Of a stretch of 53,607 nucleotides of DNA, positions 3,913-40,547 are shown in pieces; positions within the stretch are counted from its first letter, which is position 1; every line of letters begins with the position of its first letter. The notes under the pieces were generated by a model. It was given only the letters and a program-made list of their open reading frames with translations. It was not told the DNA's origin and did not search any database. The position numbers and the translations under genes are program-made. The DNA comes from a virus, in IMG/VR virus record IMGVR_UViG_3300028557_000049, positions 1 to 53,607 of that record; one strand, written 5' to 3'.

Positions 3913-4776
3913 TTATTTGAATAATTCAACCACTTGTTCAGGTGTTGAATTCTTATCGCTCAACGAATAAATCGAAACTACCAAATCTTTTTTAACCTTT
4001 TTATAGGCCTTGGTTAATCTAGTCGATATGCTTTGCGTTCGTATCGCAAACCCACTACTAAACGCTAATGCATTATTAGCACCCTTACCAGTCATTTTCT
4101 TGTATTTCAAGCCACATACCACGCCACCTCGTTTATCTAAGAATCTTAGGTCGTCAGCATCCGCATTAATTACTTCATAACCCTCATAGGCTAGGGGCAA
4201 TGCATCAAATACCATTGCGGTATTGATACCCCTACTTAGCAATTCTATTGCCTTATCATGATTGGTTTCACTACGGCTAAACGTAAGGTGATAATTGCTA
4301 GGTAAAGCCTTATCAAAACGAGTATAGTTTTTAGTATAATCGTAAAATTGCACATCAGGAAATACCTCAAAGATATTCTTATTATCAAATATCTTAAACT
4401 TTTCCCATGTAATATCTGTAGTACCATTCAAGCGAAATACAGGTATCGCATTACCCTCATGCTTCTTGATTGCCTTGGCAATTTCAGCCTTAAGTTGGTG
4501 CAAAAATTCTACCCTATTAGATAGAAAGTATTCAGACTTGTTACGTCTACCTTGTTGTACACTAGTAAACATACCACCATTGCCACTACCTACTAGACAA
4601 CTTGCAGCACAACCACTACTGGCATGACTACATAGATTAATACCCTTGCTATTATCACGAAATGAACTCATGTAAAGGATATACGTTATATAAGGCAAAC
4701 CAAATGTAGCATCATTGGTTTTTAGCGATTTAATGGTTTTTGCATTGTTAGTGGTTAACAGTATTTGTCTTTTCAT
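3913..4776 (-). CDS. GP88-family phage protein
   Basis: 287 residues from MKRQILLTTN. The order of motifs, YITYILYMSS, then NLCSHASSGCAASCL, then FRLNGTTDITWEKF, then FYDYTKNY, then YHLTFSRSETNHDKA, then VFDALPLAYEGYEVINADADDLRFLD, is what I associate with the GP88 family (PF17338) found in many phages and of unknown function. The clustered cysteines suggest metal or cofactor binding. A longer frame starting with TTG at 4803 is rejected because that TTG is part of the -7 box. A 28-codon stub of a second GP88 gene lies at 5627-5713 beyond a homing endonuclease, so this intact copy may have arrived with the endonuclease (see findings). Confidence 0.8.
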   Translation of the reverse strand: MKRQILLTTNNAKTIKSLKTNDATFGLPYITYILYMSSFRDNSKGINLCSHASSGCAASCLVGSGNGGMFTSVQQGRRNKSEYFLSNRVEFLHQLKAEIAKAIKKHEGNAIPVFRLNGTTDITWEKFKIFDNKNIFEVFPDVQFYDYTKNYTRFDKALPSNYHLTFSRSETNHDKAIELLSRGINTAMVFDALPLAYEGYEVINADADDLRFLDKRGGVVCGLKYKKMTGKGANNALAFSSGFAIRTQSISTRLTKAYKKVKKDLVVSIYSLSDKNSTPEQVVELFK

Positions 4777-4800
4777 AATAGTGTTTTTGGTTTGATGTTT

Positions 4801-4832
4801 CAAAGATAATTATTCTTTTTGTAATTACCAAA
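4801..4832 (-). promoter_or_regulatory. Promoter of the intact GP88 gene
   Basis: TTTGG-N19-TATCTTTG, 25 bases upstream of the ATG at 4776. Confidence 0.8.
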
Positions 4833-4892: not shown

Positions 4893-5630
4893 ATGAAAAA
4901 TAAAACAACCAAAAAACTAACAACAATAGATTTTGTTGAACGAGCCAAAATAATACATAACGATAAATATGATTATAGTTTATCCACATATGTTACCACA
5001 CATATTAAGGTTAAAATAATTTGTCCAATACATGGTGTGTTTGAACAATCACCACATAACCACTTAGCTGGTTTCAATTGTAAACAATGTAGTTCTGAAA
5101 ATACTGGTATTGAAAGAAGAGTAAAATTAATTGATTTTATTTCACAAGCAAATTTAATGCATAATAATTATTATGATTATTCTTTAGTTGAATATGTATC
5201 AGCCATAGAAAAGGTGGATATAGTTTGCCCAATACATGGTGTATTTAAACAAAAACCTAACGCACATATTGGACAAAAACAAGGTTGTCCAAGTTGTTAT
5301 CATCAAAAAATGAAAGATAATGGTGGAACGTGGTCGGCCATTGCTTGGCATAACACTGGCATCAAATCTAAAAATTTTGATGGGTTTAAATTATATGTAA
5401 TTCGATGCTTCAATGAAAATGAAGAATTCATAAAGATAGGTAAAACGTTTAATAAATTAAAAAAACGATTTAGTCAAATACCTTATAAATACGAAATAAT
5501 AAAAACCATAACATCAGAAAATGGTGAATATATTCATGAATTGGAAAAAAGGGTTAAACGTAAATATAATAAACATACATATTTACCTAAAACTAAGTTT
5601 GGTGGAATGTATGAATGTTTTAAAGTTTAG
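4893..5630 (+). CDS. GIY-YIG-type homing endonuclease with DUF723-like zinc modules
   Basis: 245 residues on the plus strand, against the local gene direction. Two similar modules (about residues 18-66 and 83-131) each carry CPIHGVFxQ-P-H and a later CxxC, as in the DUF723 zinc-binding repeats of homing endonucleases. The C-terminal part (about 165-245), LYVIRCFNENEEFIKIGKTF then a basic stretch, resembles a GIY-YIG/T5orf172 nuclease domain. No Bacteroidota-type promoter lies upstream on its strand. It sits between an intact GP88 gene and a GP88 stub, and its stop codon abuts the stub's breakpoint. A nuclease with this DNA-binding layout would be expected to cut GP88 genes lacking the insertion; that is inference. 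Confidence 0.8.
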   Translation: MKNKTTKKLTTIDFVERAKIIHNDKYDYSLSTYVTTHIKVKIICPIHGVFEQSPHNHLAGFNCKQCSSENTGIERRVKLIDFISQANLMHNNYYDYSLVEYVSAIEKVDIVCPIHGVFKQKPNAHIGQKQGCPSCYHQKMKDNGGTWSAIAWHNTGIKSKNFDGFKLYVIRCFNENEEFIKIGKTFNKLKKRFSQIPYKYEIIKTITSENGEYIHELEKRVKRKYNKHTYLPKTKFGGMYECFKV

Positions 5631-6220: not shown

Positions 6221-7012
6221 TTATCTCGATTCAATTTTAGTTAATTTAAACTTGGGAAATAGCTTTTTGATTTCAGATTGCTTTAATACCCCAAACCTAT
6301 CAAAACCCTCCAAGCATAATTTATTATCTGAAATAATCTTATCAACAATCGCTTGTTGCTCATCACGACTTATGGTTATCAAAGACCTGTCATGATTGCC
6401 CAAATAATATGGATTAACCGTTTCAATGGCATCACCATAATATGCGGTAATATATGCCTTAGCATCAACAGGTTTTAAATATGGTAACTCCTTAACATCA
6501 TAAGAATTCATTTCTTGCTTATATATATTCATAAAGCAATACTTGTTTTCCACCAAGTCAATAATCGTTATACCATCATTGTTGTCCTCAATGGTAAAAT
6601 CATTACGAATTTCGGGGTTGATACCATTAAGATACCAAGAAGAACCAATGCCAGCATTAACAAATGAATTATTAGTTGCTTGATAATTCATTATAAAACC
6701 AATCGCTGTGGTTATCTTTTCAATTGAATTAAAATCATTATTATAACCACCCGTTGTAAACGGACACTTATAAGAACCATACTTTTCAGTACCATCTTTA
6801 TGTGAAGTCTCAAATTGAGAACCAAATTCTAATAAACGCATTGCGTTAACTATTGCTGAACGACCATATAACCATTGGTTATAATAAACAAGTATAGTAT
6901 ACTTACTAGTACCTAATTCACTAACAGCTTTTTTCTTTTCAGCTACCGATTCAAAACGTAGGTAATTAACTGGATTAAGTATCCTTACGAAAATTTGATG
7001 TCTCTGTCCCAT
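6221..7012 (-). CDS. Conserved viral protein of unknown function (MGQRHQ family)
   Basis: 263 residues beginning MGQRHQIFVRILNP, with VYYNQWLYGRSAIVNAMRLL (about 41-61). This opening is one I associate with an uncharacterised family in phages and large DNA viruses. Mixed alpha/beta, no signal or membrane segment; the C-terminus is basic. Monocistronic behind the promoter at 7042-7073, in a run of single-gene units that looks like an early region. Confidence 0.7.
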   Translation of the reverse strand: MGQRHQIFVRILNPVNYLRFESVAEKKKAVSELGTSKYTILVYYNQWLYGRSAIVNAMRLLEFGSQFETSHKDGTEKYGSYKCPFTTGGYNNDFNSIEKITTAIGFIMNYQATNNSFVNAGIGSSWYLNGINPEIRNDFTIEDNNDGITIIDLVENKYCFMNIYKQEMNSYDVKELPYLKPVDAKAYITAYYGDAIETVNPYYLGNHDRSLITISRDEQQAIVDKIISDNKLCLEGFDRFGVLKQSEIKKLFPKFKLTKIESR

Positions 7013-7091: not shown

Positions 7092-7244
7092 TTAAAGACC
7101 AACCAACTCTTTAAACTTCTCATTACTAATAGCCTTACAACCATCTGTAGTATGTACATAATAACCAGTCTCAGTCCTATATATTAAACCAAGCAATTTA
7201 GAACCCTCTAATGGCGCAAATAGATATGTTTCAAGTACCCTCAT
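7092..7244 (-). CDS. Small unknown protein, 50 aa
   Basis: 50 residues beginning MRVLETYLFAPLEGSKLLGL and ending EKFKELVGL. A protein-like composition and a TATCTTTG box at 7273-7280 (the -33 box is poor), with a leader containing TTTAACTAAAAG, support it. It is the last minus-strand gene before the gene-free region. Family unknown. Confidence 0.6.
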   Translation of the reverse strand: MRVLETYLFAPLEGSKLLGLIYRTETGYYVHTTDGCKAISNEKFKELVGL

Positions 7245-7313
7245 GTGTATTTCTTTTAGTTAAACGATACCCCAAAGATAAACATAATAATCCGAATAAA
7301 AAAATCTATTTTA

Positions 7314-7345
7314 TTTGGTAGTCTCATTTCTTTTACTTATCTTTA
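7314..7345 (+). promoter_or_regulatory. Forward promoter 1 of the gene-free region
   Basis: TTTGG-N19-TATCTTTA on the plus strand. It points away from the local genes into the folded RNA at 7349-7426. Confidence 0.7.
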
Positions 7346-7348
7346 CAT

Positions 7349-7440
7349 CGTTGTTATAGAAAGACAACGGGTTGGTAGTCGAAAGCTACCCAGAGGGTAT
7401 ACTCCAACCTGGCTTTTAGTGTACCCATATATAAATTAAT
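7349..7440 (+). ncRNA. Candidate structured small RNA with pseudoknot
   Basis: The start site expected from the promoter at 7314-7345 is about 7350. From there the sequence folds compactly. CGTTGT (7349-7354) pairs with ACAACG (7364-7369). GGTAG (7374-7378) pairs with CTACC (7386-7390). GGGTATAC (7395-7402) pairs with GTGTACCC (7419-7426). GGTTGG (7370-7375) can pair with CCAACC (7404-7409), which lies in the loop of the previous stem, making a pseudoknot that competes with the second hairpin. An AT-rich hairpin (about 7430-7448) could end it. No reading frame is present. No known RNA family is recognised; it does not have tRNA-like ends, so it is not a tmRNA. Confidence 0.5.
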
Positions 7441-7456
7441 TAAATTTATCCATGTA

Positions 7457-7488
7457 TTTGGTAATACTAATCTTATTACCTACCTTTA
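7457..7488 (+). promoter_or_regulatory. Forward promoter 2 of the gene-free region
   Basis: TTTGG-N19-TACCTTTA on the plus strand. No gene follows on that strand. Confidence 0.65.
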
Positions 7489-7542
7489 CATCTCATTTAA
7501 TTTAATACCCCAAATATAAGGATTAATTAAATACAGGTATTA

Positions 7543-7574
7543 TTTGGTAATCTGGATTATTATTCCTATCTTTG
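7543..7574 (+). promoter_or_regulatory. Forward promoter 3 of the gene-free region
   Basis: TTTGG-N19-TATCTTTG on the plus strand, a perfect match. Only frames of 10 codons or fewer follow closely. Confidence 0.75.
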
Positions 7575-7872
7575 TACTTCAATTATCTAACGCTAATAAT
7601 AGCCTATGTGAATGAAATTAACTAAAATATCTCTTATATGACACATATTAAATATATGTAGTGTCCACCCTATATCCATACTCGTTATGGTTATGGGGAT
7701 TCTGTGTTTATGGGTATAAATTATCTAATATTTTTTTTATGGTATAATATCTTATACTGCTTTTGTGGCTATCTCAGGATATGAATCCTATTCATATAAT
7801 AGGGGATTTCTATGTCATATTTCAAGTATCCTTTTATTTCATATCAAAAACGAATCATATTCCCAGTATTTA

Positions 7873-7898
7873 CCACTTCTTCCCACTTCTCTCCACTT
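7873..7898. repeat. Three CCACTT repeats at 10-bp period
   Basis: CCACTT occurs at 7873, 7883 and 7893, each separated by 4 bases, so all three lie on the same face of the helix (AAGTGG on the minus strand). Such phased repeats are typical of protein-binding iterons or cooperative operators. The binding protein is unknown. Confidence 0.5.
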
Positions 7899-8005
7899 AT
7901 TTCAAAAAAGCCCAAACGTGCTAACGTAGGTACAATATTTATCCTATAATATACAAAGCCATGTATATCAAGGTATTATAAATATGTCTTTAGGGCTGGC
8001 GTACC

Positions 8006-8025
8006 ATGTACACAAATGTGTACAT
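8006..8025. repeat. 20-bp palindrome, copy 1
   Basis: ATGTACACAAATGTGTACAT, 9-bp arms around AA, one base past the stop of the gene at 8027. Identical to 8290-8309 and nearly identical to 23241-23260. Confidence 0.8.
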
Positions 8026-8026
8026 A

Positions 8027-8227
8027 TTACCATGATTTCTTATTAACTAAATTTAGCAGATTATATACCAGTGCTGCATCATATTCTTGCTTAGATATTA
8101 CATCGACACAAGTATCCTTACCTCCAGCATAAGCTAGGCTAAAACGTCCATCATTTAATTCAGCGTAGGTAAGATGATAATCTATATCTATAAAATAAAT
8201 CTTAAAGGCTTTTTTAATTAATTTCAT
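8027..8227 (-). CDS. Small unknown protein, 66 aa
   Basis: 66 residues beginning MKLIKKAFKIYFIDIDYHLT, including YAELNDGRFSLAYAGGKD. Mixed beta by eye, no membrane segment or family recognised. It has no promoter of the window's main type directly upstream and is probably read from the unit starting at 8740. A 20-bp palindrome lies just beyond its stop. Confidence 0.55.
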   Translation of the reverse strand: MKLIKKAFKIYFIDIDYHLTYAELNDGRFSLAYAGGKDTCVDVISKQEYDAALVYNLLNLVNKKSW

Positions 8228-8289
8228 ATTATTCTTTATTATAATATACTTGGGGCCGATGTGCGGCTACGCCATCTAACATCGTACCG

Positions 8290-8309
8290 ATGTACACAAA
8301 TGTGTACAT
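8290..8309. repeat. 20-bp palindrome, copy 2
   Basis: Identical to copy 1 (8006-8025). Its last base is shared with the stop codon of the gene at 8309-8716. Just beyond it (8257-8284) CGATGT and ACATCG form another inverted repeat. Confidence 0.8.
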
Positions 8310-8716
8310 CATAGTGATTTTTGGTTAGTGGTTTTAAGCCAATTATAAATTTTATCAGCTTTATCGGTAAAGTAGCTTAATTCATAACGTATACTATTAT
8401 CCATAGCTACAGCCAATTTAAGGCACTCTAATCTAAGATTAACATCTTTATCGCTAACTTCTACCTTATTTGGGTTATCGTTGGTTAGCGTGGTTGTTTC
8501 ACCCCATTCAGATAACTCTTGTGGTGTTGGTGTGTATGGTTCAAAATCTGTTATATCAAGGTCGTCCATAAATTCTCCTACTTGCCACAACGAACCTTCG
8601 ACAGTTTTTGCTATTCCTTCAAAATATCTATTGCTATCTTTTTGATAGCCAACAAATTGCACCTTTAGACCTTGGTTGCCTTTATACTTATAATACTTCT
8701 TATAATACTTGTTCAT
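8309..8716 (-). CDS. Unknown protein, 135 aa
   Basis: 135 residues. The tyrosine/lysine-rich start (MNKYYKKYYKYKGNQGLKVQ) leads into a small beta-rich segment (about 15-50) and a helical C-terminus. Not a recognised family. It follows the promoter at 8740-8771 and ends in the second 20-bp palindrome. Confidence 0.6.
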   Translation of the reverse strand: MNKYYKKYYKYKGNQGLKVQFVGYQKDSNRYFEGIAKTVEGSLWQVGEFMDDLDITDFEPYTPTPQELSEWGETTTLTNDNPNKVEVSDKDVNLRLECLKLAVAMDNSIRYELSYFTDKADKIYNWLKTTNQKSL

Positions 8717-13258: not shown

Positions 13259-14431
13259 TCATTCCATTGCTGGAACTGATTCGGGCAAACGTTGCCCTAT
13301 CATATTATATAATCTCATTCCCTCATGCTCAATATTAAGCGCAGCATTCTCATCCCTGTCTATAATCAATCCACATCCCTCACAGATAAACTCCCTGTCA
13401 GCTAATGTCAAGTTAACATTCTTCCAACCACAACATGAACATGTCTTACTGCTCGGATAAAACCTGTCAACAAACATCACTTCCCTTCCATGCCAAGCTG
13501 ATTTATATTCAATCTGTCTTCGCATCTCGCCTAGACTTAATTCTTGAATAGCTTTCGCCAATTTATGATTTTTAAGCATTCCACTTACATTCAAATCTTC
13601 CAGACAGATAACTTGGTTTTCGTTAACCAATCTGGTTGTGATATTATGAAGAAAATCATTCTTTTGATTTTTTATTTTCTCATGTAACCTTGCTAATTTA
13701 ATCTTAGCTTTATACCTGTTATTACTTCCTTTTTGTTTTTTAGAAAGCCTTTTTTGTAATCTAATCAGTTTTTCTTCTGATGTTCTTATCCACTTAGGGT
13801 TATCAATGGTTTCACCATTCGATAATGTAAGAAGTGTCTTGATTCCAAGGTCAATACCAACTGAATGATTAACTGGTTCATTCATTACACGAAGCAAATC
13901 ACCATCAATCAAGATGCTTGCATAATAATGACCACATTTCTTTCTTATTATTGTTATTGATTTGATTCCTGTTTTGTTCTTATACAAATAATCCTTATCC
14001 CGTTTGCTACATTCAAAATTAATACCATTAATTGTTTTAGTTAAATTTAACTTAGATTGAACCTCATCAAATGTTTTGCTTGCAACAGCCTCTTGTGGGA
14101 ATCTTGCTTTCTGTTCATCATGCTTTGATTTGAATTTAGGAAAACCTCTACCTTGTTTAAAGAAGTTCTTATAAGCCGTTTCAAGGTTAATGATTGATTG
14201 TTTAAGAACCTTTGTATTATGTTCTTTCAGCCATTCATAATCATTACGTAGATTACCATGAAAATACTTTCCAAGGTCAGAGAATGAAGTATTTGATTTA
14301 TCCGTTTCGTAACGTTGTTTCTTATAAGCAAGCGATTGATTAAAGACAAATCGATAAGAACCCAAGAGTGAGTTAATTCTCATCTCTTGGCTCTTATTCG
14401 GGTATAATCTAATCTTAATCGCTTTTAACAT
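13259..14431 (-). CDS. tnpB: TnpB RNA-guided nuclease of an IS605/IS607 element
   Basis: 390 residues. N-terminal OrfB/HTH region (about 1-50), then the RuvC-like core with all three acidic residues in their usual settings: D194 in GIDLGIKTLLTLS, E278 in VICLEDLNVSGM and D360 in LIIDRDENAALNI. A zinc ribbon (C331/C334 and C350/C353) lies between the last two. TnpB cuts DNA guided by an omega RNA and helps its element persist. Length and motifs are complete, so it should be active. Its start overlaps the stop of a cargo gene (TAATG), which ties its translation to that operon. Confidence 0.93.
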   Translation of the reverse strand: MLKAIKIRLYPNKSQEMRINSLLGSYRFVFNQSLAYKKQRYETDKSNTSFSDLGKYFHGNLRNDYEWLKEHNTKVLKQSIINLETAYKNFFKQGRGFPKFKSKHDEQKARFPQEAVASKTFDEVQSKLNLTKTINGINFECSKRDKDYLYKNKTGIKSITIIRKKCGHYYASILIDGDLLRVMNEPVNHSVGIDLGIKTLLTLSNGETIDNPKWIRTSEEKLIRLQKRLSKKQKGSNNRYKAKIKLARLHEKIKNQKNDFLHNITTRLVNENQVICLEDLNVSGMLKNHKLAKAIQELSLGEMRRQIEYKSAWHGREVMFVDRFYPSSKTCSCCGWKNVNLTLADREFICEGCGLIIDRDENAALNIEHEGMRLYNMIGQRLPESVPAME

Positions 14432-23240: not shown

Positions 23241-23260
23241 ATGTACACAAATGTGTACTT
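23241..23260. repeat. 20-bp palindrome, copy 3
   Basis: ATGTACACAAATGTGTACTT: matches copies at 8006 and 8290 except for one base. It lies one base past the sigma-factor stop codon. Confidence 0.75.
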
Positions 23261-31552: not shown

Positions 31553-32725
31553 TTATTGGTTAGAGAGACTATAAACACCTCTATTATGAATATTGATGCT
31601 GGCGTTTACGTCAGCATCATTTTCATAACCACAGACAATACAATTAAAGGCTTCGCCTTTTCTATTGTTTTTATCTATATGACCACATGCGGAGCATGTT
31701 TGTGATGTATATGCTGGTGAAACCTTCACCAGATTAATTCCATATTCATCAGTAATTCTTTCTAATTTAAGTATAGTCTTAGTATAAGACCATCTTTGTA
31801 TTTTATTATTAAAATATTTTTTACCGGTTTTAACTGATTTTAGATCTTCTATAATTAAATCCTTTATATTATTTAATGGTAATTCATTACATATTTTGTT
31901 AATTTCATTATCCCTATGGGATAATGCTTTTTTAAATGCTTTACTACCTTGTTTCTTTCTACTTATTTTATTGTATATTTCAGTTAATTCACCATTATAT
32001 TTATTTCCATTATTATCACATAAGAGTTTATTATAACCCATATCCAATCCTAATGAAGAACCTTCGGTTCTTTTATTAGGATTTTCTTTAAACCATATTA
32101 AACTTATGTAATAATCATTATTAACTTTTCTAATCTGAATATTATTTCTTAAATTAAATCCTTCAGATAATAATTTATTAGAATGTTTATGATTATTTAA
32201 TGGAATATTAATTTGCAATGCTCTAGTACCTTTATCATTAAAATAAGGTAGCTTAAGATTAATAAAAGAATTAAAATGATTACCTGATTTTATATTAAAG
32301 AATCTTTCATCTAAATTAATAGATAAATTATTTAGATTAGGTATTTTAAAATATTTAGATTTAATAATAGATTTAAGATTTAGATTACTATATTTTATTT
32401 TAATAAATGAAGAATCAGGATGATTCTTCATCATATATGAATATATTTTTTTATAGTTATTATATCTTTTTTTATTAGCTTTATCTAATTGACTTCTTAT
32501 TATAGAAGATGCTTGTTTATAAATTAATTGTTTATATCTACTATGGTTAATAGTTTCAGATGGTAAATCTTTAGAGGATAAATTAATTTTAAGTGGTAAT
32601 ATTCCATCTATTATATAATTCATATAAGTTAATAAATCAGACTTATAATCAATAAATAATTTATCGAGGGAAGCAAGCTTCCCTTGATTACAATTTTTGA
32701 TTATATGTTTAGATGATTTAATCAT
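31553..32725 (-). CDS. TnpB-like RNA-guided nuclease, divergent
   Basis: 390 residues. Catalytic residues are all present: D228 in SLGLDMGYNKLL, E293 in DLIIEDLKSV, and D372 in NDADVNASINIH, with a zinc ribbon from C344/C347 and C362/C365. The N-terminal half (about 1-220) shares little with the TnpB at 13259 and is very rich in Asn, Ile and Lys, so it may have been in the phage for long or come from a different source. No transposase gene is next to it; instead an RHH gene overlaps its start. It could be a stand-alone homing-type nuclease rather than part of a transposon. Confidence 0.85.
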   Translation of the reverse strand: MIKSSKHIIKNCNQGKLASLDKLFIDYKSDLLTYMNYIIDGILPLKINLSSKDLPSETINHSRYKQLIYKQASSIIRSQLDKANKKRYNNYKKIYSYMMKNHPDSSFIKIKYSNLNLKSIIKSKYFKIPNLNNLSINLDERFFNIKSGNHFNSFINLKLPYFNDKGTRALQINIPLNNHKHSNKLLSEGFNLRNNIQIRKVNNDYYISLIWFKENPNKRTEGSSLGLDMGYNKLLCDNNGNKYNGELTEIYNKISRKKQGSKAFKKALSHRDNEINKICNELPLNNIKDLIIEDLKSVKTGKKYFNNKIQRWSYTKTILKLERITDEYGINLVKVSPAYTSQTCSACGHIDKNNRKGEAFNCIVCGYENDADVNASINIHNRGVYSLSNQ

Positions 32726-38957: not shown

Positions 38958-40547
38958 TTATTTAAATGTCGTAAACTCATTATTAATGAAGTTAATGTGT
39001 TGTGCACGTCCATCATTATGAATTATAACATGGCTTTGTAACCAAGTACTTGGCCCTTGATTGTAACCGACACGTAAGTGTGTGCTGGTACCAACAGCCA
39101 AAGCACCGTCCTTACGTCCAGGTGAATGGTAGTGTCCAACAACAATCTTGGTATTTAATTTTCTAAATTGCAATAAAGAACCACGACTTCCATTCGAACC
39201 AAAATCACCGTGTTGTCCAAGTTCAAAGCCACCCTTAACCTTATATGATGCACTTCTGTTAAGTGAAATAAAGTTAGGGTATTGTTTCTTAATCAACGCT
39301 GGTATTACACCTATTACGTTAGATGGGTCTGAACCATATTGTTCAAGCAATATATCCGATAATTGCATATACAATCTAGCGTTTTTAAAGCTTGGTTGTT
39401 TTTTCCAATCTTCGTTCTTAAGCCATCTATCCAAGAAATCATCGTGATTACTTCTAACAATAACAACGTTCTTAAATTTTTCAAAGCTCTTTAAACCATT
39501 CATCATGGTATCCAATTCCTTACCCAAGTCATTGGTGCCATTCATCTCTTTACCATATTGGATAAATGGGTCTTTCATTTGGTGGTGTGAAATTGAATCA
39601 CCATCGAATACGTCATGTAAGATTACATGGTTAGGCTTAATGTCGTTCATCAATTTAAGCGTCTCATCAATAACCCCTTGGTCATGGTGACCGAAGTGTA
39701 TATCACCCAATATGATAGCTTCCATTGAAGTTACTCGGCTAACCTTACCTGATTCTACATGGTAATATAAATCATTAAAGTTACCTGTCTTATCATCAGC
39801 AGTTACTTGTCTAACAAAGAAGGTTTTTTTATCCTTTATCTCAACAACAACAAAGCCAAAGGTATGATGAAATTCGCCCTTCTTACCAGCCTTAGAATCC
39901 GTATAATTCTTAAGCGTAACTGCACCAGTTGATAGCATCATCTTTGGCTTGCTATTTTCAAGGACTGGTATCATTTCAAGTTGCACTCTTGGCGAACCGA
40001 AGATACATGAATTAATACCGCTAAGTCCTTCTAAGCCAGACATTGGATTAATTGCTGTTGGTTGTATCTTGACATCAGACATAATCGAAACATATTCGTG
40101 TATATCATGTCTATTCGCATCAGCATACTTCATTATTTCATCAGCCCAGACTTCTTCATTTTTTTGTTCGGCTGTAAATACGGATGTCGGATTCTTATAT
40201 CGACCAAGAATGATATGTATATCAGCATCAATTTCCTTGGCATAAGCTTCAATATTCTCATAAAAACCCTTATGAACCTTTGTATTGTTCTGTCCAAAGG
40301 TGATTATAAACCTTTTTTTGGTTTTATCAAACTTGCGCTCTTTGGCCTTGGCATATTGTTCTGGTTCTACCTCTGGCTTACTTTTAAGCTTTAGTTTTTC
40401 ACTGACCCATTTACGTATAGTACGTTCACTAACACCAAATTCATCACCAAGCATTGCCGCTTTCTTTTCCCAAGGTTGCCCATTATCATCTTGGTAAACA
40501 TCAATTAAGCGTTGTTTTTGTTTTTCAGTTAATTCTTTAAACTTCAT
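38958..40547 (-). CDS. HTH-metallophosphoesterase, possible T5 A1-like DNase
   Basis: 529 residues. An N-terminal HTH (about 5-55, LIDVYQDDNGQPWEKKAAML then GVSERTIRKWVSEK) is followed by a middle domain (about 75-275, including KIQPTAINPMSGLEGLSGIN) and a calcineurin-like domain (from about 275): AIILGDIHFGHHDQG, VILHDVFDGDSISHHQMKDP, IVRSNHDDFLDRW, GQHGDFGSNGS and VVGHYHSPG. The architecture resembles, by recollection, the phage T5 A1 pre-early protein, linked to destruction of host DNA. If so this would be a host-DNA-degrading enzyme; otherwise a phosphodiesterase of unknown target. A monocistronic unit with a promoter at 40581-40612. Confidence 0.75.
   Translation of the reverse strand: MKFKELTEKQKQRLIDVYQDDNGQPWEKKAAMLGDEFGVSERTIRKWVSEKLKLKSKPEVEPEQYAKAKERKFDKTKKRFIITFGQNNTKVHKGFYENIEAYAKEIDADIHIILGRYKNPTSVFTAEQKNEEVWADEIMKYADANRHDIHEYVSIMSDVKIQPTAINPMSGLEGLSGINSCIFGSPRVQLEMIPVLENSKPKMMLSTGAVTLKNYTDSKAGKKGEFHHTFGFVVVEIKDKKTFFVRQVTADDKTGNFNDLYYHVESGKVSRVTSMEAIILGDIHFGHHDQGVIDETLKLMNDIKPNHVILHDVFDGDSISHHQMKDPFIQYGKEMNGTNDLGKELDTMMNGLKSFEKFKNVVIVRSNHDDFLDRWLKNEDWKKQPSFKNARLYMQLSDILLEQYGSDPSNVIGVIPALIKKQYPNFISLNRSASYKVKGGFELGQHGDFGSNGSRGSLLQFRKLNTKIVVGHYHSPGRKDGALAVGTSTHLRVGYNQGPSTWLQSHVIIHNDGRAQHINFINNEFTTFK

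Follow-up and report, generated by a model that had tools for sequence, protein, structure and literature searches.

A predicted family of small structured RNAs behind a promoter without a gene in a phage of Bacteroidota type

Introduction

What is made from three promoters that no gene follows? The window, by which the whole 53.6-kb virus record analysed here is meant, carries three plus-strand TTTGG-N19 sites at 7314, 7457 and 7543, present exactly as a first-pass annotation had described them, and that annotation took them for well-formed promoters of small RNAs. Its description of the setting was borne out as well. The flanking genes are all read from the minus strand: 6221-7012 and, at 7092-7244, a frame of 50 aa come before the promoters, and 8027-8227 comes after them. 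Only tiny plus-strand frames were found between the promoters and 8030, the longest having 45 aa from an ATG start (7812-7949) and 53-54 aa from TTG or GTG. No plus-strand ATG frame of more than 45 aa lies wholly downstream of the promoters.

Phage small RNAs are known mostly from phages of Enterobacteria and from those of a few other hosts. The window represents part of a phage genome whose relatives are large phages of the Bacteroidota type. For a conserved 529-aa protein encoded at 38958-40547, which PHROG calls 'DNA transfer protein', 80 relatives in viral contigs were kept, some on contigs longer than 300 kb; the 50 relatives searched below were mostly the longest, and all may be fragments. 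Gene order is common to the window and three related phages, designated G007, G037 and G021. No relatives were obtained through the neighbour gene 6221-7012. Two window genes, 13259-14431 and 31553-32725, match transposases (PHROG 506).

The three promoters

The pattern TTTGG-N19-TAnCTTT[AG] occurs on the plus strand of the whole window at the three positions only and on the minus strand at 16 sites, against a chance expectation of 0.03 sites per strand (mean of 60 Markov-shuffled copies). All 16 minus-strand sites end in the consensus G. Promoter 3 ends in it too, whereas promoters 1 and 2 end in A, so that the description as well-formed holds fully for the third site and falls one base short for the other two. 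The Bacteroidota primary-sigma promoter consensus, described for Flavobacterium in PMC6847099, is TTTG/TANNTTTG, with TTTG at -33 and TAnnTTTG at -7 in a fixed spacing. Promoter 3 fits this fully and promoters 1 and 2 fit it except for the final A. Promoter 1 is predicted to be of the host Bacteroidota sigma-factor type.

The sites belong to one direct-repeat family (7312-7349, 7455-7492 and 7541-7578), the second and third repeats being 74% and 68% identical to the first. The promoter arrangement is divergent, because a degenerate promoter-like site is found on the opposite strand just ahead of promoter 1 (Table 1). A ATACCCCAAAnATAA repeat at 7267-7281 and 7505-7519, by which the minus-strand promoter-like end is apparently doubled between promoters 1 and 3, suggests a putative tandem duplication of a divergent promoter region.

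Table 1. Positions of promoters, predicted RNAs and repeats in the window
Feature	Positions	Strand	Sequence or basis
Promoter-like site, degenerate	~7273-7305	-	76% complementary to promoter 3; ahead of the 50-aa frame 7092-7244
Promoter 1	7314-7345	+	TTTGG-N19-TATCTTTA; exact pattern match
RNA1, member of the new RNA family	7348-7413	+	R2 match, R1 match, fold z -2.9
P1, 5' hairpin of RNA1	7348-7370	+	Fold; own-pair energy against permuted pairs, z -6.3 (80 members)
P3 hairpin of RNA1	7374-7390	+	GGUAGU-CGAAA-GCUACC; fold; family covariation, permutation z -16
Conserved core	7395-7405	+	GGGUAUACUCC; family mostly GAGUAGACUCC; no variation at the UA-ACUCC columns among 83 seeds
Promoter 2	7457-7488	+	TTTGG-N19-TACCTTTA; exact pattern match
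Promoter 3	7543-7574	+	TTTGG-N19-TATCTTTG; exact pattern match
RNA3 hairpins (predicted)	7640-7698	+	GACAC...GUGUC, then CCCUAU...AUGGGG; folds; same layout and order in syntenic G007 (L119:4965-5060)
Repeats	7872-7934	+	ACCACTT/CCCACTT/TCCACTT and CGTGCTAACGTAGGTACA; common to G037 and G021 at similar core distance

An RNA family downstream of promoter 1

Promoters without a following frame were scanned for in nine related records and the window, and the stretch downstream of promoter 1 was found to resemble stretches in G007, G021 and G037, in which a hairpin right after the promoter is followed by a second hairpin and then by GTAGACTCC or GTATACTCC. A pattern of the promoter plus GAGTAGACTCC retrieved 53 stretches from viral contigs and none from a genome collection with one genome per species for 84,980 species, and a pattern of the window hairpin gave 0 matches in viral contigs. 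By our count the pattern contigs number 38, of which 36 entered the record search with model R1 and two, G021 and G037, belong to the set of relatives. From 73 pattern members, L193:2596 and L163:3596 were dropped, and for the MAFFT alignment L180:5165 also.

The family is laid out as a 5' hairpin (P1), ACGGG, a strongly covarying hairpin (P3) and an almost invariant core. The usual core, GAGUAGACUCC, was counted in 79 of 90 copies, a figure inflated because the search pattern demanded this core for most loci. In a gap-free set of 19 copies, the pairs of P3 and the core gave a covariation of 0.327 compared with 0.157 after shuffling, a value reached by none of 500 shuffles, and every double change in this set falls in P3. 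P3 and three core pairs in 83 copies without the window gave 0.392 against 0.201 (again 0 of 500), and the same structure slid along the alignment gave 0.06-0.09. Furthermore, the energies of arms with their own partners beat 200 of 200 permutations for both P1 and P3 in the 80 members with a readable promoter. We have high confidence that this is a real RNA family; its promoter, its two hairpins, its core and its occurrence in multiple copies are computational observations.

As for the alignments, A1 (63 of 71 references) misplaced short hairpins and so was not used for counts; A2 holds 19 of the 71 references, picked for equal hairpin length, and A4 holds 83 of 87 rows, four partial rows being left out. 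A MAFFT alignment of 70 members yielded no RNAalifold structure. A helix from the 5' end to the tail was rejected by the permutation test, as was one from ACGGG to the tail, though pair counting had looked suggestive for the latter. A GAG/CUC mini-hairpin was without compensatory change, and a general tail pattern, fitting just 27 of 90 members, is not claimed. The copies at L180:3606-3679, L175:276 and L205:5447 contain an inserted hairpin and, after it, AGACTCC once more, which looks like a duplication of the core.

Two models were used on the window, R1 with 19 seeds and R2 with 83, the window being left out of the seeds. R2 gave a sole match at 7367-7413 (28.5 bits, E 3.5e-6) and R1 a sole match of 16.4 bits (E 0.035), E-values that are rough because the calibration was short; both matches lie directly 3' of promoter 1. 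Under the narrow model R1 the window copy is weak, with E 0.67 in a search of 1.03 Mb. Both hairpins and a core of the UA[G/U]ACUCC type are present in the window. Its UAUA core recurs in copies of G007 and G031, the G031 copy having a 5' hairpin sequence like that of the window and one of the G007 copies being situated 0.8 kb past the homologue of window gene 3913-4803.

The RNA1 transcript probably spans about 7349-7430, as predicted from the sequence. A pattern for intrinsic terminators (a G+C-rich hairpin followed by a T run) gave 0 hits in 7200-8100, which makes read-through antisense to 8027-8716 possible. A palindrome, TGTACACAAATGTGTACA, occurs at window positions 8007-8024, 8291-8308 and 23242-23259, the third copy with one mismatch, where 0.04 matches would be expected with up to 3 mismatches. 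It stands each time 0-2 bases past the stop of a minus-strand gene, is found also in G007, G037 and other relatives, and may be a hairpin that marks the transcript end but has no T run.

Distribution and neighbours of the family

R1 matched 31 of the 36 pattern-selected records at E 0.01, with up to 10 copies per record. With R2 at E 0.05, matches were obtained in 6 of the 50 relatives, and no record had more than 13 copies (13 in G021, 9 in G037, 5 in G007 and 1 each in G031, G035 and G038), the counts for G007, G021 and G037 including seeds in part. The G035 match looks weak because its locus has neither a promoter nor an ACTCC core. Nothing was matched by R2 in 30 Bacteroidota genomes, with up to 150 candidates scored per genome. 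When DNA similarity to 7345-7760 was sought in the 50 relatives, the best matches were of the promoter only. Blast of single copies matched the promoter region and no RNA core in GenBank phages, and gave nothing useful in plasmids.

A promoter-like box stands just upstream in 28 of 28 copies from G037, G021, G007 and the window, 16 of them by the strict pattern, while random positions carry such a box in 3.3% (strict) and 9.2% (strict or relaxed) of cases; in this count, as in that of GTAGACTCC, some upstream promoters pass the relaxed pattern only. The distance from the -7 box to ACGGG is 13-24 nt in 16 copies, and the window likewise has a promoter-like box at 13-24 nt before ACGGG. G037 contains GTAGACTCC 9 times and G021 contains it 10 times, always within family copies, where 0.6 and 0.1 occurrences are expected.

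Among the 90 copies, the 3' neighbour is oriented opposite to the RNA in 47, in the same direction in 34, and is absent within the locus in 9. Both neighbours are opposite in 42 of the 90, as they are in the window, and 12 of the 90 share sequence with a frame of 50 aa or more. The largest cluster of similar neighbour proteins comprises 8 of 248, so that no gene stands out as a partner. In G007, G037 and G021 an RNA copy keeps its place relative to neighbours or repeats.

Promoters 2 and 3 and the conserved island

The 56 nt between promoters 2 and 3 (7490-7545) fold no better than their shuffles (z +0.2), and promoter 2 more likely serves as an additional start of the promoter-3 RNA than as the source of an RNA of its own. 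A further structured RNA, the predicted RNA3, is thus probably made from promoters 2 and 3 together. In G007 the RNA3 hairpins follow the second promoter of that phage and have inner pairs changed, in a comparison of two sequences only. Against shuffles, the window fold reached z -1.0 for the hairpin pair, -1.8 for the whole and -3.0 for a shorter cut (7576-7700), compared with -4.2 (pair) and -4.1 (whole) in G007. A match to the RNA3 pattern in L381 looks like chance.

The earlier claim of small RNAs from all three promoters is supported in part. It is well supported at promoter 1 by a covarying structured family and moderately at promoter 3 by two hairpins and one syntenic phage, and it finds no conserved RNA at promoter 2.

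The island is conserved as a unit, because the hairpins recur in G007 while the repeats and CGTGCTAAnGnAGGTACA lie at near-constant distance in G037 and G021. The spacing between the RNA copy, the repeats and CGTGCTAAnGnAGGTACA hardly differs among the window, G037 and G021, and the core lies at -521, -549 and -521, respectively, relative to CGTGCTAA. As judged by eye, 8 of 11 stretches with the CGTGCTAA pattern were unrelated, coding-like sequence. The repeat block stands beside an RNA copy at window 7872-7934, L149:9504-9570 and L130:17734. At this block G037 and G021 carry GTTCCACGTGGAAC-like palindromes, which we take to resemble parS and which are absent from the window. In G007 a frame that by eye resembles an HNH endonuclease (L119:5095-5514) splits the conserved non-coding island; in the window, a plus-strand gene for an HNH endonuclease (4893-5630) is located at a distance of 1.7 kb.

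Proposed action of RNA1

A model is proposed in which promoter 1 would give a stand-alone RNA of roughly 80 nt, beginning with the 5' hairpin and passing through the ACGGG linker to the second hairpin, and displaying the near-invariant GUA[G/U]ACUCC. Phages would carry several diverged family copies, each with its own promoter, and the RNA would act in trans during infection. Its core would be bound by a host or phage protein, either as a decoy or within an RNA-protein complex, with no pairing to a target RNA, and the several copies could raise the RNA dose or broaden specificity. The whole explanation, namely a trans-acting family RNA from promoter 1 with a protein-bound core and RNA3 from promoters 2 and 3, is given an even chance of being right. 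Among its parts, action in trans seems fairly likely, and the core as a protein-binding site, a view drawn mainly from absent complements, is put at slightly under even. A trans-acting RNA with a protein-read core is favoured because complements are missing or rare and because of the stand-alone layout. Up to 13 promoter-driven copies, a near-invariant core and strongly varying hairpins argue for a shared binding partner under selection. A more speculative extension, which we regard as doubtful, is that the multi-copy RNAs titrate or reprogramme a host protein, such as a defence or RNA-processing factor, through GUA[G/U]ACUCC, the copies having diversified in an arms race.

Base-pairing small RNAs, too, are usually short and stand-alone and expose a conserved core, so that the core or a hairpin loop might instead pair in trans with host or phage mRNA. 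Such antisense action is unlikely, since in G037 and G021 neither the core 9-mer nor its complement occurs outside family copies, the rRNA loci examined in three Bacteroidota genomes showed no core complement, and GGAGTMTACTC gave 3 matches in 12 Flavobacteriaceae genomes (candidate hosts) against 14 for the reversed control, by our sums.

The hairpins begin right at the promoter, with ACGGG close behind the -7 box, and RNA1, like HK022 putRNA, would be a structured RNA with which a phage transcript opens. HK022 putRNA is a phage nascent RNA that binds polymerase (PMC9378689), and by this precedent the family hairpins might act in cis, modifying RNA polymerase to read on past pauses and terminators. 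However, putRNA acts in cis on early-gene transcription (PMC9378689), whereas there is often nothing for a family RNA to read into, because its 3' neighbour frequently faces the opposite way. The same orientation holds in the window, where RNA1 does not lie upstream of and in line with genes that it would serve, and a putRNA-like role is considered distinctly unlikely.

The near-fixed spacing of RNA copy, repeats and CGTGCTAAnGnAGGTACA in three phages, together with the palindromes in the G037 and G021 islands, would also suit a replication or partition region whose tandem promoters make primer or activating RNAs. In none of G037, G021, G007 and the window does the GC skew turn at the island, further copies of the RNA family lie dispersed across tens of kilobases elsewhere, and the window is without the palindrome, all of which renders this very unlikely. 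That the sites are chance resemblances or relics giving no transcripts is highly improbable: the final G of the consensus is missing from sites 1 and 2, but almost no site is expected by chance and a conserved RNA family lies directly downstream.

Relation to known RNAs

Like the phage-encoded small RNAs covered by a review (PMC12197685), the members of this family would be short, non-coding and phage-transcribed, but they are unlike them in that one phage carries several diverged copies built around a common core; no mention of Bacteroidota-type phages was found in that review by the terms searched. The family is previously uncatalogued, with no Rfam match. Rfam 15 at the gathering score gave no match in the window, L166, L202 or L185, and in 7280-8300 and L166, L175, L204, L176 and L194 it gave only weak, chance-level matches away from family copies. 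No paper on such an RNA family was found, most subscription-journal papers and bioRxiv preprints lying outside the literature searched, and RNA terms retrieved nothing on it in the available parts of PMC12363816, PMC9723584 and PMC7162821. The family supplies a ready search model, as well as a short RNA bait for a partner in Flavobacterium-type hosts. In two related phages a tmRNA (tag GNDFVVSENFL.EAACSFAGELAVA) stands behind a promoter of the same type, at L112:1885-2241 and L123:16534-16890.
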